Below are positions 53,392 through 58,865 of a stretch of 64,000 nt of DNA, piece after piece (within the stretch, counting starts at the first letter, position 1; every line of letters begins with the position of its first letter). The translations under genes and the position numbers were made by a program. The DNA is from Methylocaldum marinum (GTDB lineage Bacteria > Pseudomonadota > Gammaproteobacteria > Methylococcales > Methylococcaceae): assembly GCF_003584645.1 (NCBI RefSeq), contig NZ_AP017928.1, positions 4,664,833 to 4,728,832 of the forward strand. The letters are read 5' to 3'. The notes beneath the pieces were generated by a model that did not search any database, was not told the origin of the DNA, and was given only the letters and a program-made list of their open reading frames with translations.

Positions 53392-54735
53392 TCAATCCGG
53401 CAGCGCGTTCAGTCTCCGCTCGAGAAACCGCCGCTCCGGTTCCTGCCGTGTCAGGCCGAGCGCCCGCTGGTAGGCGGCGCGGGCTTCCGAAGCTCTCCCC
53501 AAGCGTCGGCACAGGTCGGCGCGGGCGGCATGCGCCAGGTGATAATCCTTGAGATCGCCGCGAGCCAGTATTGCGTCAATCAGAACGAGACCGGCGGCGG
53601 GGCCATCCCGCATCGCCACCGCTACGGCGCGGTTCAGTTCCACTACCGGTGACGGTTCGGCGCGCAGGAGGAAATCGTAGAGCCCGACGATCTGGGCCCA
53701 GTCGGTTTCGGCGGCATCAGCCGCTTCGGCATGCACGGCTGCGATCGCCGCCTGCAGCGTATACGGGCCGAACCGGCGCGACGACAGCGCGCGCTCCACC
53801 AGGGCGCAGCCTTCCTCGATCCGATTCCGGTTCCAAAGTCTTCGGTCCTGCTCGTCGAGCAGTATCAGTTCGCCCCTGGGCGAGGTGCGCGCGGCGCGGC
53901 GTGATTCGTGCAGCAGCATGAGCGCCAGGAGGCCTTGCGCTTCGGGTTCCGGCAGCAGTTCGATCAGCAGCCTTACGAGGCGGATGGCTTCCTCCGACAG
54001 ATCGTGCCGCGTCACGGATCCGCCCAGCGAGGCGGAGTAACCCTCGTTGAACACCAGGTAGATGACGCGCAGCACCGCATCCACACGCTCCGGCAGATCC
54101 TCCCGTGCCGGTACCTGATAGGGAATGCGGGCATCGCGGATCTTGGCCTTGGCGCGCACGATGCGCTGGGCCAGCGTGGGCGGCGCGGCGAGGAAGGCGC
54201 GAGCGATCTCTTCCGTGGTAAGGCCGCAGACTTCGCGCAAGGTGAGCGCGACCTGTGCGTCCGGCGCCAGGGCCGGATGGCAGCAGGTGAAGATCAGCCG
54301 CAGCCGGTCGTCTTCGACCGCGTCTTCATCCCAAAAGGCGGGATCGACGACGCCGACAGCGCTCCTTTCGGCGAGTTCGGTCAGCGAGGCGGCACCGTGT
54401 TCGAAATGCGCGTCGTCCCGTTCCGTGGGGTCGTCGCTGTCGGGCCGTTCGGCCGCGTCTTCCGGCAAAGCGACGAACCGGGCGCTCCGGCGCAGGTTGT
54501 CGATGGCCTTGAAGCGGCCCGCGGAAACCAGCCATGCCCGCGGATTAGCCGGCACGCCTTGTTTCGGCCACTGTTCGAGTGCCGCCCTGAAGGCGTCGTG
54601 CAGCGCTTCTTCGGCAAGGTCGAAGTCGCCGAGCAATCTCACCAGGGTGGCGAACACGCGGCGCGAATCGGAACGGTAGACGGCGTCCACCGTCTCGCGT
54701 ACCCGTTCAGCGCCGTTGTCGTTCGAGAAGGACAT
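53392..54735 (-). CDS. ECF42-type RNA polymerase sigma factor
   Basis: 447 residues. Region 2 (about 15-85; VYRSDSRRVFATLVRLLGDFDLAEEALHDAF) and region 4 helix-turn-helix (about 160-200; LTLREVCGLTTEEIARAFLAAPPTLAQRIVRAKAKIR), followed by a ~240-residue C-terminal TPR-like extension (INELLPEPEAQGLLALMLLHESRR to the end) that defines ECF42. ECF42 genes are typically linked to DGPF/YciI proteins and have no classical anti-sigma factor; two YciI genes lie 5 kb upstream on the same strand. A VOC gene directly upstream has been split by an IS1-type insertion, which may cut the sigma gene off from its operon promoter. Confidence 0.9.
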   Translation of the reverse strand: MSFSNDNGAERVRETVDAVYRSDSRRVFATLVRLLGDFDLAEEALHDAFRAALEQWPKQGVPANPRAWLVSAGRFKAIDNLRRSARFVALPEDAAERPDSDDPTERDDAHFEHGAASLTELAERSAVGVVDPAFWDEDAVEDDRLRLIFTCCHPALAPDAQVALTLREVCGLTTEEIARAFLAAPPTLAQRIVRAKAKIRDARIPYQVPAREDLPERVDAVLRVIYLVFNEGYSASLGGSVTRHDLSEEAIRLVRLLIELLPEPEAQGLLALMLLHESRRAARTSPRGELILLDEQDRRLWNRNRIEEGCALVERALSSRRFGPYTLQAAIAAVHAEAADAAETDWAQIVGLYDFLLRAEPSPVVELNRAVAVAMRDGPAAGLVLIDAILARGDLKDYHLAHAARADLCRRLGRASEARAAYQRALGLTRQEPERRFLERRLNALPD

Positions 54736-54853
54736 TTGCCGCGCTAAGCGTTGTTTTGCTCGGACAGCGCCGCGGCGCGTCTCGCGATCTCATCGGGAGT
54801 GAGCTCTTCCTTGCGGGTAGCGAGGAACCAGACATGCCCGAACGGGTGGTGGG

Positions 54854-55249
54854 TCAATTTAGTTGAAAGCAGTGGCGATTAATGAAGAGGCCGATCACCC
54901 CATCGTGAAGCAACTCAGATTTTGAAAAGCAGATCGTTTTGCGAGTTAAGCGCTTGATGCGAGTGCGTAACAAAAGGTTTTTGTTTTCGATCTTTTGCGT
55001 ATATTTCTTACCAATGACGTGCTGGTTTGCCGGAATGAACGCCGCATAGCTTGGCCAATCATCGGTGTAATAGGTTCGAATATTGAAAACGCGCAGATTG
55101 GCGATCAATTGTTCGCAAACGTCCTCTTTGCGCCGCCCAAACACAAATGACAAAATGCATCCGGTGGCGGCGTCGATGGCGTACCAGAGCCAACGTTGGT
55201 TCTTCTTGCGAGCCACATAGCTCCACTGTTCGTCCGCCTGAACATCCAT
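54854..55249 (-). CDS. insB: IS1 transposase InsB part
   Basis: 131 residues. DDE domain of IS1: ADEQWSYVARKKNQRWLWYAID (first Asp), YYTDDWPSYAAF (second Asp), and RLTRKTICFSKSELLHDGVIG with the Glu region. Normally InsB is made as an InsAB' fusion by -1 frameshifting at an A-run. Here the A-run is present at the end of insA, but the -1 frame meets a stop near 55260 and insB lies in the insA frame beyond a stop, so the fusion cannot be read without a second shift. The copy is probably inactive or uses a different start. Confidence 0.8.
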   Translation of the reverse strand: MDVQADEQWSYVARKKNQRWLWYAIDAATGCILSFVFGRRKEDVCEQLIANLRVFNIRTYYTDDWPSYAAFIPANQHVIGKKYTQKIENKNLLLRTRIKRLTRKTICFSKSELLHDGVIGLFINRHCFQLN

Positions 55250-55309
55250 CGGCGAATCAATAGAGATGCCTGATTTCCACGGCGATTTCCCGAGAGCCGA
55301 TGTAAGGAT

Positions 55310-55585
55310 TCACCGTGACCACTTCGGTGGACTTTTTTTCAGTGTAGACATGACTGTGTTTTTCCCAATCCCGAGAACACGAGCGGTATCTCGAATACCA
55401 CTGCCATTCATCGCCATGTCAACAATCTGTTCTTTGATACCGGACTCGTAGGCCCGGTAAATGTATTCGGTCTTGAAGGTGCGCCCACAGTGCTTGCAAC
55501 GAAAGCGGGGGTAACCACTCTGTGTACCATAGCGCACCACATCGGAACTTTTACAGTATTTGCACGGAATCGTTTGATAGGCCAT
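55310..55585 (-). CDS. insA: IS1 regulator/transposase InsA part
   Basis: 91 residues from the ATG at 55585. Zinc finger IPCKYCKSSDVVRYG...FRCKHCGRTFK (two CxxC pairs) and a helix-turn-helix (GSGIRDTARVLGIGKNTVMSTL). InsA binds the IS ends and represses transposition. A run of seven A residues (minus strand, 55339-55333) near its 3' end is the usual frameshift site. Confidence 0.85.
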   Translation of the reverse strand: MAYQTIPCKYCKSSDVVRYGTQSGYPRFRCKHCGRTFKTEYIYRAYESGIKEQIVDMAMNGSGIRDTARVLGIGKNTVMSTLKKSPPKWSR

Positions 55586-56267
55586 TGGTCCAGTCAATGC
55601 TTAAGCTAAGAAATAATTGTACATTGTAGTATATAAACTACTTAAACCCACCGCCCCCGAACGGATCTTCCAGTGTGCCGGTGCGGTCACCGTAAAACTG
55701 GTCTTGTACCGGCCTGACAACTTTCGCGCCCGCGTTTACCGCGCGGGCAAACAGCGTATCCACGTCTTCCACGTACATATGGAGGCCGACCGACGAACCG
55801 CCCAGCGCCTCGGGGCTTCGGAACGCGCTCGTCTCGCACGGGTCGGCCATCATGATGGCCGAATCGCCGATTCGGATTTCGGCGTGCCCGATTTCACCGC
55901 CAGAGGCGGCCAGGCGAAAGAGTTCCACTGCGCCGAATGCCCGTTTGTAAAATTCGATGGCCTCGGCCGCACCTTTAATACTCAGGTACGGTGTCACGCT
56001 GTGGTAGCCGTCAGGGATGGGTTTAACGGTCATATCCTTGCTCCTTTCCGGTTGGAGATGATGGTTCAGGCTTTCGGCGATCCGAAACTCTATTCGAACC
56101 GCGTGCGCCGGTTTGCCGGAGCGTGCTTTGCCGCGGTTCAGCGGGGCGGTATTCGAAGACGCTGGCCACGCCCGAGAAAGCCGAAATCTTTCGCAAGTCG
56201 GCAGCCATTCCGGAATCCGGGGCTCAAACGCCCGGTCCGCGGGTGCTGCGCGAAGAAAGCCGTAGGT

Positions 56268-56906
56268 TCATGCCCGCGGCTGCGCCGTTTCCCGCTCGGG
56301 CCGGGTAATCGCAGCCGCTTCCGCCAGGGCGACCGCGTGGGTTCGTACGTCGTCCGGCCAGTTCGCGACAGCCTGGACCAACCGGCCGTGATCGCCGGCA
56401 AACAAGGCCCTGATGGCTTCTTCGAAGCCGGACTCGTTTCCGGCCATGGCATTCATGAATTTATAGGCCGCTTCCCGCGCCCGGCGGATCTGGTCGTCCT
56501 GCTTGTTCGCGCGCATGGCGTGCTCGACGAGTTTTCTCAGGGCCACCGAGGCGCCGCCGGGCTGAGAAGCCAGCCATTCCCAATGCCTAGGCAACAAGGT
56601 GACTTCCCGTGCCGTAACCCCGAGCTTCGGGCGTCCGGCCGCTCGCGGCACGCCGGCGGCTCCGTGCGGGGCCGGCTCGGCCGCGGGGACGGAGGTTTGC
56701 GGCAATCGGTCGAGAACCTCCGTCACCGAGCGGCGAAGATCGAGTTCCACGGGCCGGCTCGTCACGGCATCGAAAATCAAAACCATATCCTGGCTATCGG
56801 TATCGACGAAAGCCTTTACTTCGGAGGCCACGTCACGCGGCGGACCCAGGGCGATGCGTTTGGCGCCTGCAAACGCGATCCACATCGGTTGCGGGTTAAT
56901 ACTCAT
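56268..56906 (-). CDS. DUF2239 family protein
   Basis: 212 residues. The start WIAFAGAKRIALGPPRDVASEVKAF and the later GRPKLGVTAREVTLLPRHWEWLASQPGGASVALRKLVEHA are those of DUF2239 proteins, whose function is not established; the second part resembles a DNA-binding or ribbon-helix type element. Twin palindromes overlap its promoter (56938-56981), so it is tightly regulated, perhaps by itself. It lies between the split VOC gene and the SRPBCC gene. Confidence 0.8.
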   Translation of the reverse strand: MSINPQPMWIAFAGAKRIALGPPRDVASEVKAFVDTDSQDMVLIFDAVTSRPVELDLRRSVTEVLDRLPQTSVPAAEPAPHGAAGVPRAAGRPKLGVTAREVTLLPRHWEWLASQPGGASVALRKLVEHAMRANKQDDQIRRAREAAYKFMNAMAGNESGFEEAIRALFAGDHGRLVQAVANWPDDVRTHAVALAEAAAITRPERETAQPRA

Positions 56907-56937
56907 AAAAATGATCTCGTCAAAAAGTTACGAAATC

Positions 56938-56981
56938 ATTTTACCCGGGTAAAAGACGGCGTCAATTTTACCCGGATAAAA
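56938..56981 (-). promoter_or_regulatory. Promoter with twin palindromic operators before DUF2239
   Basis: TTTTACCCGGGTAAAA (56939-56954) is a perfect 16-bp palindrome; TTTTACCCGGATAAAA (56966-56981) is a one-mismatch copy 27 bp away. On the minus strand TTGACG (56965-56960) and TAAAAT (56943-56938) form -35 and -10 boxes with a 16-bp spacer, so the first operator covers the spacer and -10, and the second lies just upstream of -35. The start codon follows about 32 bp on. Confidence 0.7.
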
Positions 56982-57099
56982 TATTGGCTGCTCATGCCGA
57001 CGAATACCGCACCCTTCTTGGCGATGCCGTCCTGAATCGCGGCGCGGGCCGGTCAGGCCGTGCCGCACCCGGCAGTCTGCCCGGCAAAGTCCGGCACGC

Positions 57100-57636
57100 T
57101 CAGTGTCCGGGGTCCTCTGCGATGGCCTTCAGGCGCGCGAGACCGGCCTCGAAATCCTTGCCGATCATCTTGTCCATGCTGATGAAAATTCCGATGAGTT
57201 TGGAAATGTAGGGGAGGGGGCCGTACATGGCCCAGGTGGCTTGAGTGGTATCGCCCCTGGATTGCAGCGTGAACTCGACCATGTTGTGGGCCTCGAAAGG
57301 CCTGATGAAGTCCAGTTTCATCGCGATCCTGGACGGAGGAGACGACTCCGTGATTTCCATACGCCCCTGGCCGATTTCCTGGTTGCCGTCCCATTCGTAC
57401 ACGACGCCCTTGCCGTCCGGGGCGCCGCTGTAGGTTCGCTTCATCTCCGGGTCCTTTTTCTCGTACGGTGACCAGGAATTCATACTATGCAGATCGTTGA
57501 TGAGAGGAAAGATCTTCTCCGGCGGCGCTTTGATGTCGGTGGTACGCTGGACACGGAAGGTGTCGGGTCTGGTCGCGGCATAGACGAGAACGGCGGCCAG
57601 CAGAAGAATGACTACGACGGCTACGATCCTTAACAT
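57100..57636 (-). CDS. SRPBCC-family membrane-anchored protein
   Basis: 178 residues. An N-terminal membrane helix (LRIVAVVVILLLAAVLVYA), then a START/SRPBCC fold: FRVQRTTDIKAPPEKIFPLINDLHSMNSWSPYEKKDP and MVEFTLQSRGDTTQATWAMYG. Polyketide-cyclase-like proteins of this type bind hydrophobic ligands. Commonly clustered with ECF42/YciI modules. The gap up to DUF2239 (about 360 bp before its start) carries nothing else of note. Confidence 0.8.
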   Translation of the reverse strand: MLRIVAVVVILLLAAVLVYAATRPDTFRVQRTTDIKAPPEKIFPLINDLHSMNSWSPYEKKDPEMKRTYSGAPDGKGVVYEWDGNQEIGQGRMEITESSPPSRIAMKLDFIRPFEAHNMVEFTLQSRGDTTQATWAMYGPLPYISKLIGIFISMDKMIGKDFEAGLARLKAIAEDPGH

Positions 57637-57690
57637 GGTTTTTTCCGGGGTGTAAAACTGCGTGGAAAGGCACGGAGCCGAACCGGGCGA

Positions 57691-57861
57691 TCAGGCCCCG
57701 GCCAGCCGCTCAGCCAGCGGGTCCAGGCATTCGCTCCAGCCTGCCGCGTGGCCGTCACGCGATCGGCGGGAGTCGAATAGGGCCAGGCGGAAGACCAGCC
57801 GGGTTTGTCCGTCGAAGTCTTCGGGGTTTACCGAAACCTCCGTCGTGTGCCGCGGCTTTCC
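57691..57861 (-). pseudogene. AHSA1/SRPBCC gene remnant, C-terminal end
   Basis: About 56 residues, HTTEVSVNPEDFDGQTRLVFR to RDGHAAGWSECLDPLAERL, are the C-terminal end of an Aha1-type SRPBCC protein. The frame is open further upstream, but there it runs through the DUF1579 gene in another phase and does not look like the family. The N-terminal ~100 residues are missing, so a deletion has removed them. Confidence 0.55.
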
Positions 57862-57914
57862 CTCCTCGCCGAGTGTCTTCCTTGCTCCGAACCCGGAGGA
57901 CGGTTTGATGCCAA

Positions 57915-58397
57915 TTATATCTGCCGCCAGAAATTGGCCGACATAATCCGGTGCCAGTCGCCGTCCTCGCCCAGCACATAAGAGTTCATGACTCGGTGCT
58001 CGCTGCTCTTGAACTCGATGACGTCCCGGTATTTCGCCGATTTCCCCTGAACGGCGAAATCCGGTCCCGCGGTATTCAGGCTCAGAACCTGCCCGGCGAC
58101 ATCCAGCGAACCTTCGTAGACGAACAGCCAGCTCATCATCGACCCGAGCCAGGTGCCCACGAAGCGCTCCTTCTGCGAGTCGTGGCCCAGCGTCATCAAG
58201 GCCGTCGCCCTGCCGCCGCCGGGCATTTCGCCCCGACTTTCGCACAAGACCCAGATGCCGCCGAAAAAGCGCACGTTCTCCGTGCCGGTCGCTTTCTGCG
58301 GCGGCTTGCCGGGCTCGCACGCTCCCTCGATCTCGTAGGTCCAGTCCCCCACCAATTTTTGCAGCCATGGGTGTAAGTTTTGCGGTTCATGGTTCAT
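57915..58397 (-). CDS. DUF1579 family protein
   Basis: 160 residues. HPWLQKLVGDWTYEIEGACEPG at the start, FFGGIWVLCESRGEMPGGGRATALMTLGHDSQKERFVGTWLGSMM and MNSYVLGEDGDWHRIMSANF match DUF1579, a lipocalin-like beta-barrel family of unknown role often found near YciI and VOC genes. The end is followed directly by an AHSA1 remnant. Confidence 0.78.
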   Translation of the reverse strand: MNHEPQNLHPWLQKLVGDWTYEIEGACEPGKPPQKATGTENVRFFGGIWVLCESRGEMPGGGRATALMTLGHDSQKERFVGTWLGSMMSWLFVYEGSLDVAGQVLSLNTAGPDFAVQGKSAKYRDVIEFKSSEHRVMNSYVLGEDGDWHRIMSANFWRQI

Positions 58398-58454
58398 GTC
58401 CGTCTCCTGGCAGCCGGATACCGGCCTTGTTTTCAGTTGCGGCGGGGAGCCGTC

Positions 58455-58865
58455 TCAACTCGGAACGATGATCATCCAGGCCACGCTGAAGCGGTCGGTG
58501 ACCATGCCGAAGCATGGAGAAAAGAAGGTCTTGCCCAGGGGCAACTGGACCTGCCCGCCTTCGGCCAGCGCTCCGAACAAGCGTTGGGCCTCCGCTTCAT
58601 TCGCCGCCGAAAGCGATAGCGAGAATCCTTGGAAGTTCGGCTTTCCCTGACAGAGCCCGTCGGAAGCATTCACCGTGGTCTCGCCGATGCGGAAGCTCGA
58701 ATGCAGGATTTTATCCTCGGATCCGGGCGGGAGCGGACACTGGGAAGGCTCGGGGCTTTCCTTGTTGCGCAGCAGCATGGTGACTTCGGCGCCGAGCGCA
58801 CTACGGTAAAAATCGATCGCCTCTTCGCAGCGGCCTTCGAAGAACAGATAAGGTTCGATACGCAT
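58455..58865 (-). CDS. VOC family protein (PhnB/YjdN-like)
   Basis: 136 residues. RIEPYLFFEGRCEEAIDFYRSALGAEVTMLLR, then LHSSFRIGETTVNASDGLC and AWMIIVPS at the end: a VOC fold of the PhnB type (3-demethylubiquinone-9 methyltransferase-like). Same strand as the DUF1579 gene. Function unknown; a common member of ECF42 neighbourhoods. Confidence 0.85.
   Translation of the reverse strand: MRIEPYLFFEGRCEEAIDFYRSALGAEVTMLLRNKESPEPSQCPLPPGSEDKILHSSFRIGETTVNASDGLCQGKPNFQGFSLSLSAANEAEAQRLFGALAEGGQVQLPLGKTFFSPCFGMVTDRFSVAWMIIVPS

Follow-up and report, generated by a model that had tools for sequence, protein, structure and literature searches.

Palindromic twin sites on DUF2239 promoters suggest a previously undescribed family of autorepressors that also controls a few detoxification-type genes

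Which protein acts on the two 16-bp palindromes that sit on the promoter of a DUF2239 gene in Methylocaldum marinum? The gene lies on the minus strand at 56268–56906 of a 64-kb window (the whole stretch of DNA analysed, 64,000 nucleotides) and encodes a protein of 212 aa that matches Pfam family PF09998 (E=1.6e-71; 240.4 bits against a cut-off of 25, residues 9–195). On the comparisons set out below, DUF2239 is probably an undescribed family of autorepressors with a small regulon of detoxification type.

The gene-proximal operator, TTTTACCCGGGTAAAA (56939–56954), is a perfect 16-bp palindrome, and the distal operator, TTTTACCCGGATAAAA (56966–56981), has one mismatch; neither is assigned a strand. 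Their starts are 27 bp apart, as the preliminary description had it, leaving a gap of 11 bp between the palindromes. The −35 element, TTGACG (56965–56960, minus strand), lies in this gap, with the distal operator immediately upstream of it. The gene-proximal operator fills most of the −35/−10 spacer and most of the −10 element, TAAAAT (56943–56938, minus strand), identified by promoter scan. In alignment A3, the positions of both operators are conserved and TTGAC is strongly conserved. TTGACG/16/TAAAAT is the only sigma-70-like match in 55600–57110 (10/12, spacer 16), where shuffling yields a mean of 0.4 such matches. The operators had been described as framing a good promoter: the pair does sit on one, but the operators do not lie outside it, the proximal one overlapping the −10 element. 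The palindromic sites overlap the promoter of DUF2239's own gene; that DUF2239 is also their regulator is what we infer from the comparisons below.

Such sites are rare in this genome. No further palindrome with up to three mismatches occurs in the rest of the window, and 100 dinucleotide shuffles of the window gave a mean of 0.10 palindromes, none of them containing two. A scan of the 6.09-Mb genome with up to one mismatch to TTTTACCCGGRTAAAA returned, beyond the pair, only C1:3714948 (TTTTACCAGGGTAAAA), a single, unpaired site inside long open reading frames; there is no second such operator pair elsewhere in the genome.

Phylogenetic footprinting of upstream regions supports the assignment of the palindromes as the operator pair of the DUF2239 promoter. 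From a scan of species genomes that gave at least 577 DUF2239 loci, the best 80 were taken, a choice that biases the set towards close relatives of the query. One of them (L091), whose contig begins inside the gene, was not included when upstream sites were counted. Taking as a site any sequence with up to three mismatches to TTTAYCCGGRTAAA within 170 bp upstream, 61 of the 79 remaining loci (from the best 80 of at least 577) carry two or more sites and 78 carry at least one; among 1,580 dinucleotide shuffles of the upstream DNA, two sites were found in none and one in 63. The pair consensus is close to TTTTACCCGGGTAATATTGAC-n-TTTTACCCGGGTAAAAT, its central YCCGGR is nearly invariant, and the second site usually lies over the spacer and the −10 element. 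By title, the loci come from many Pseudomonadota, Verrucomicrobia, Bryobacterales and other Acidobacteria, Melainabacteria, a cyanobacterial bin, Armatimonadetes, Actinomycetes, Chloroploca, Desulfobacteraceae, Corallococcus and Gemmatimonadaceae. Of the 101 genomes searched as relatives, that of M. marinum among them, four have DUF2239, and in all four the operator pair stands ahead of it. The preliminary description had named lack of conservation of the palindrome in relatives as the observation that would speak against it; the opposite was found, decisively, with the pair kept across many phyla.

The distance between the sites is less constant. In the 61 loci, the start-to-start spacing is 28 bp (n=24), 29 bp (n=14), 27 bp (n=12) or 19 bp (n=4), and more rarely 26 bp (n=3), 34 bp (n=2), 20 bp (n=1) or 25 bp (n=1). 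The proposal of cooperative repression has so far found no support: spacing varies (mostly 26–29 bp, but also 19–20, 25 and 34 bp), 27 bp does not correspond to an integral number of helical turns, and in some lineages a single good site is retained. Cooperative binding at a fixed helical phase was not accepted on the same spread of spacings. As Bryobacterales-type loci with 19–20 bp spacing have a TTGACA-like box upstream of both sites, the constant part looks like one site over the spacer and −10 element. In Collimonas (L034, L062 and L075) and in one further genome (G289), the sites vary with no obvious change in the core of the protein.

The occurrence of the sites follows that of DUF2239. 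Genomes were searched with R1, a sequence-only model of the sites derived from the window together with 38 loci; it detects them in 84 of 87 sources, including 46 of the 49 outside its building set. Among the relatives, a strong R1 match (E < 1e-8) is present in 4/4 genomes with DUF2239 and in 0/97 without it, weak matches (E 7e-4 to 0.007) being seen in three DUF2239-negative genomes. In the class set, which shares a few genomes with the relatives set, R1 matches 4/5 genomes with DUF2239 and 0/364 without; the fifth positive genome, G289, has looser sites and no R1 match. The corresponding counts are 59/59 versus 1/41 among relatives of Bradyrhizobium G469 and 31/32 versus 0/88 among relatives of Ralstonia G467, and the Fisher tests applied to all of these counts ignore shared ancestry. 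The exception in the Ralstonia set is G611, whose DUF2239 gene contains an in-frame stop (TAG); in G604, which belongs to the 31, the R1 match lies ahead of another gene and DUF2239 has a single looser site. One changed-core site, TTTTATCCTGATAAAA, precedes the stop-bearing gene of G611 (locus L247, 1738–2295). In one genome, G490, a site stands ahead of a GIY-YIG-like gene and DUF2239 was not detected.

The pair travels with DUF2239 on plasmids across phyla. Among the copies examined (18 of 24 DUF2239 plasmid records), two sites within four mismatches are present in 7/7 copies of one group, to which a Bacillota plasmid (Paenibacillus) belongs, and in 9/11 of another; copies in Bacillota and Deinococcota thus keep the sites. 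The Paenibacillus plasmid pJ45TS6 (L216, 1256–5018) carries tet(L), followed by DUF2239, a DUF1330 protein and a macrolide-esterase-like hydrolase, its DUF2239 gene being preceded by a near-perfect twin operator. Two divergent Acinetobacter copies (L222 and L240; approximately 31% identity) have the changed-core sites ACCCTGATAA and ACCCCGATAA (core ACCCTGA/ACCCCGA) at a spacing of 19 bp, and in the core of the protein LLPRHW has become LQKKHW. This covariation, a single event in one lineage, would favour DUF2239 as the binder but is suggestive only. In viral contigs, the Acinetobacter protein as query gave no homologues; an alignment query gave seven loci, six with one site within four mismatches and one with none.

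What kind of protein might bind these sites? In an alignment of a subset of 48 proteins (A2; L061 was left out, as the range matched there extends beyond stop codons), a core of the form GRPKLGV.AREVTLLPRHWEWL..QPGGASVALRKLVE is close to invariant. In the window, this core is GRPKLGVTAREVTLLPRHWEWLASQPGGASVALRKLVEHA (codons 91–130; 56517–56636, minus strand), and its conservation in A2 and predicted helices make it the candidate DNA-binding region. In 78 of 80 proteins, GRP follows closely on a basic residue, an arrangement that may resemble an AT-hook. AlphaFold2 (mean pLDDT 82) predicts helices at 106–114 and 119–155, so that in the core an extended segment would be followed by a short and then a long helix. 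Because of this order of elements, a ribbon-helix-helix fold was considered. It remains a lead only: none of the 48 proteins matches RHH_1 (PF01402) at E≤10 with hmmscan, a PDB sequence search gave no match to a DNA-binding domain, and hhalign of 30 cores (a shallow profile) against 17 RHH_1 members found nothing. Nor did the 48 members match known helix-turn-helix repressor families (TetR, MarR, LacI and others) in Pfam or NCBIfam at E≤10. Structure searches of the full model with Foldseek and VIA-align returned only weak, unrelated rows, as did BFVD, and Foldseek on the core model, which is of low confidence, gave no usable match. A search of the open-licence literature for DUF2239, COG3644, PF09998, pfam09998 and IPR018715 found no paper; the palindrome motif appeared, in the portions of that literature covered, in no paper except one on double rolling circle replication.

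Beyond DUF2239 itself, the same sites precede a small and recurrent set of genes. A gene for a GIY-YIG-like protein of about 111 aa has twin sites in L152, L078, L080 and L090, and a single site with TTGAC or similar in seven further loci (L193–L196, L201, L202 and L248); several Bradyrhizobium versions are half-twin, retaining just the site upstream of the −35 element. The NCBI annotation of two plasmids calls the gene beside DUF2239 a 'GIY-YIG nuclease family protein', and the GIY-YIG-like proteins tested had no Pfam match. An alpha/beta hydrolase gene has twin sites in L154 and a single site in L241. The L154 hydrolase and its relative behind DUF2239 on the L216 plasmid obtain their highest scores with macrolide esterase models (E ~1e-58), at 195.9–198.5 bits, far below the 420-bit cut-off of those models. 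Sites also precede a dienelactone hydrolase gene (L155 and L242–L244) and a relative of RPE65/carotenoid oxygenases (L245); L078 and L080 have them ahead of a DUF1330 relative that is oriented divergently from the GIY-YIG-like gene. Near DUF2239, the GIY-YIG-like gene is found in 9 and the hydrolase in 2 of the 80 loci, and a MATE transporter gene lies downstream in 15, one of them at only 24% identity. In L242–L244 (approximately 1100–1640; a divergent locus of Cupriavidus/Ralstonia type), a MarR/IclR-like gene stands behind the GIY-YIG-like gene, with the twin operator present. For M. marinum itself we claim no regulon, since the GIY-YIG-like protein has no match in the genome and R1 has only one match at E<0.01 outside the DUF2239 promoter, the weak C1:4537329 (E=0.0027).

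We propose that DUF2239 is a one-component transcription repressor that would bind TTTAYCCGGRTAAA palindromes and repress its own promoter from one site just upstream of the −35 element and another over the spacer and −10 element. Because the sites occupy the −35 flank, spacer and −10 element, protein bound there would obstruct RNA polymerase. In many bacteria, DUF2239 may also repress, through the same sites, a small, scattered set of detoxification type: the GIY-YIG-like protein, the macrolide-esterase-related alpha/beta hydrolase, the dienelactone hydrolase, the carotenoid-oxygenase relative, the DUF1330 protein and the MATE pump behind DUF2239. In M. marinum, the pair is confined to the DUF2239 gene. 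Repression presumably lasts until a small molecule, the putative ligand of DUF2239, is sensed. A more elaborate version of this proposal, for which our confidence is tentative, makes DUF2239 a new transcription factor family in which an AT-hook-like basic GRP arm would contact the A+T arms of the site and a strand/helix/helix unit the YCCGGR centre; it would head a cross-phylum xenobiotic regulon (GIY-YIG-like proteins, MATE pumps and macrolide-esterase-related esterases) induced by a natural product or aromatic compound.

That DUF2239 might bind its own operators had been suggested from the window alone. Conservation and co-distribution make it the most likely regulator, and it is the only gene common to all 80 loci, the next families (antisense and alternative-frame look-alikes aside) occurring in 15. 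Against an autorepressor speak the lack of a sequence or fold match to a known DNA-binding domain, G490, the MarR/IclR-like gene in L242–L244 and the absence of an R1 match in G289, besides the restriction of the covariation to one lineage and the varying sites of Collimonas and G289. Several of these points would suit a separate, widespread transcription factor that binds the palindromes, with DUF2239 as its most conserved target and the core of the protein serving another function: DUF2239 matches no known DNA-binding family, G490 retains a site ahead of its GIY-YIG-like gene with no DUF2239 detected, and the MarR/IclR-like gene behind the same pair offers a possible alternative regulator in L242–L244. 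We nevertheless consider this unlikely, because the sites disappear almost entirely where DUF2239 is absent, the pairs move with DUF2239 on plasmids across phyla, and no other gene is common to the 80 loci, in none of which the MarR/IclR-like gene has a match.

If DUF2239 does act at the sites, it could also be an activator or dual regulator instead of a repressor. The distal site occupies the usual position of an activator, immediately upstream of the −35 element, and only that distal-type site is retained ahead of several Bradyrhizobium GIY-YIG-like genes. However, the second site usually lies over the spacer and −10 element, a position from which bound protein should obstruct polymerase, and the promoter hexamers are already good, so that activation appears very improbable. 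Least credible of all is that the palindromes arose by chance or as a by-product of an A+T-rich promoter and have no bound regulator. Parts of the arms do coincide with the −35 and −10 elements, but the nearly invariant YCCGGR centre is no promoter feature, no shuffle among the 1,580 produced two sites, and the sites are co-distributed with DUF2239; a chance origin is refuted by conservation across phyla.

Several known systems resemble the proposed DUF2239 autorepressor in part. According to excerpts of PMC9110341 and PMC12051234, NrdR likewise acts through two palindromic boxes upstream of the genes it controls, kept across many phyla, and often controls its own gene; its boxes prefer three or four whole helical turns from centre to centre (excerpt of PMC12051234), whereas the DUF2239 pair is mostly 27–29 bp apart, and also 19–20 and 34 bp. 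The motifs differ too, and NrdR consists of a zinc ribbon and an ATP-cone, Pfam families that none of the 48 DUF2239 proteins matches. The genomic setting recalls the TetR- and MarR-type repressors of efflux and detoxification, which are encoded by small autoregulated genes with palindromic operators on their own promoters: DUF2239 has promoter palindromes and lies beside, or occurs with, MATE pump, hydrolase and glyoxalase-type genes. Unlike them, it matches no Pfam helix-turn-helix family, and its core is predicted to run from an extended segment through a short helix to a long one. This predicted order would fit ribbon-helix-helix proteins (Arc, MetJ and CopG), whose beta-helix-helix fold forms an intertwined dimer, but no Pfam, PDB sequence or profile–profile match connects the two, and the first helix of Arc is longer than that of the DUF2239 core. 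As for the regulon, the L154 and L216 hydrolases resemble the macrolide esterases (EstT/EstX and relatives), giving their best scores with models of that group, far under the cut-offs. A term search of PMC11214618 gave no mention of DUF2239, and one of PMC12704417 no word starting with DUF.

If the proposal is right, a large family of at least 577 loci with no assigned function gains a testable job and a defined candidate binding site. The same site recurs from Pseudomonadota to Acidobacteria, Melainabacteria, Deinococcota and Bacillota, and allows the regulon to be listed computationally. The genes of that regulon suggest a role in detoxification: among them are hydrolases related to macrolide esterases, and one plasmid copy lies next to tet(L). 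The likely DNA-binding core is one that no searched library recognises.

By Pfam, 53392–58865 of the window (minus strand) holds a cluster of small detoxification-type genes, encoding an ECF-like sigma factor with DUF6596 and glyoxalase-like, Polyketide_cyc2/AHSA1, DUF1579 and 3-dmu-9_3-mt domain proteins. At 54854–55597 and 55638–56033, an insertion of IS1 type, with DDE_Tnp_IS1 and InsA-like ORFs, directly adjoins the glyoxalase-like gene that lies behind DUF2239. This gene looks truncated by the insertion, as its protein ends early, at 131 aa compared with 180 aa for the uninterrupted version in L004 (829–1371).
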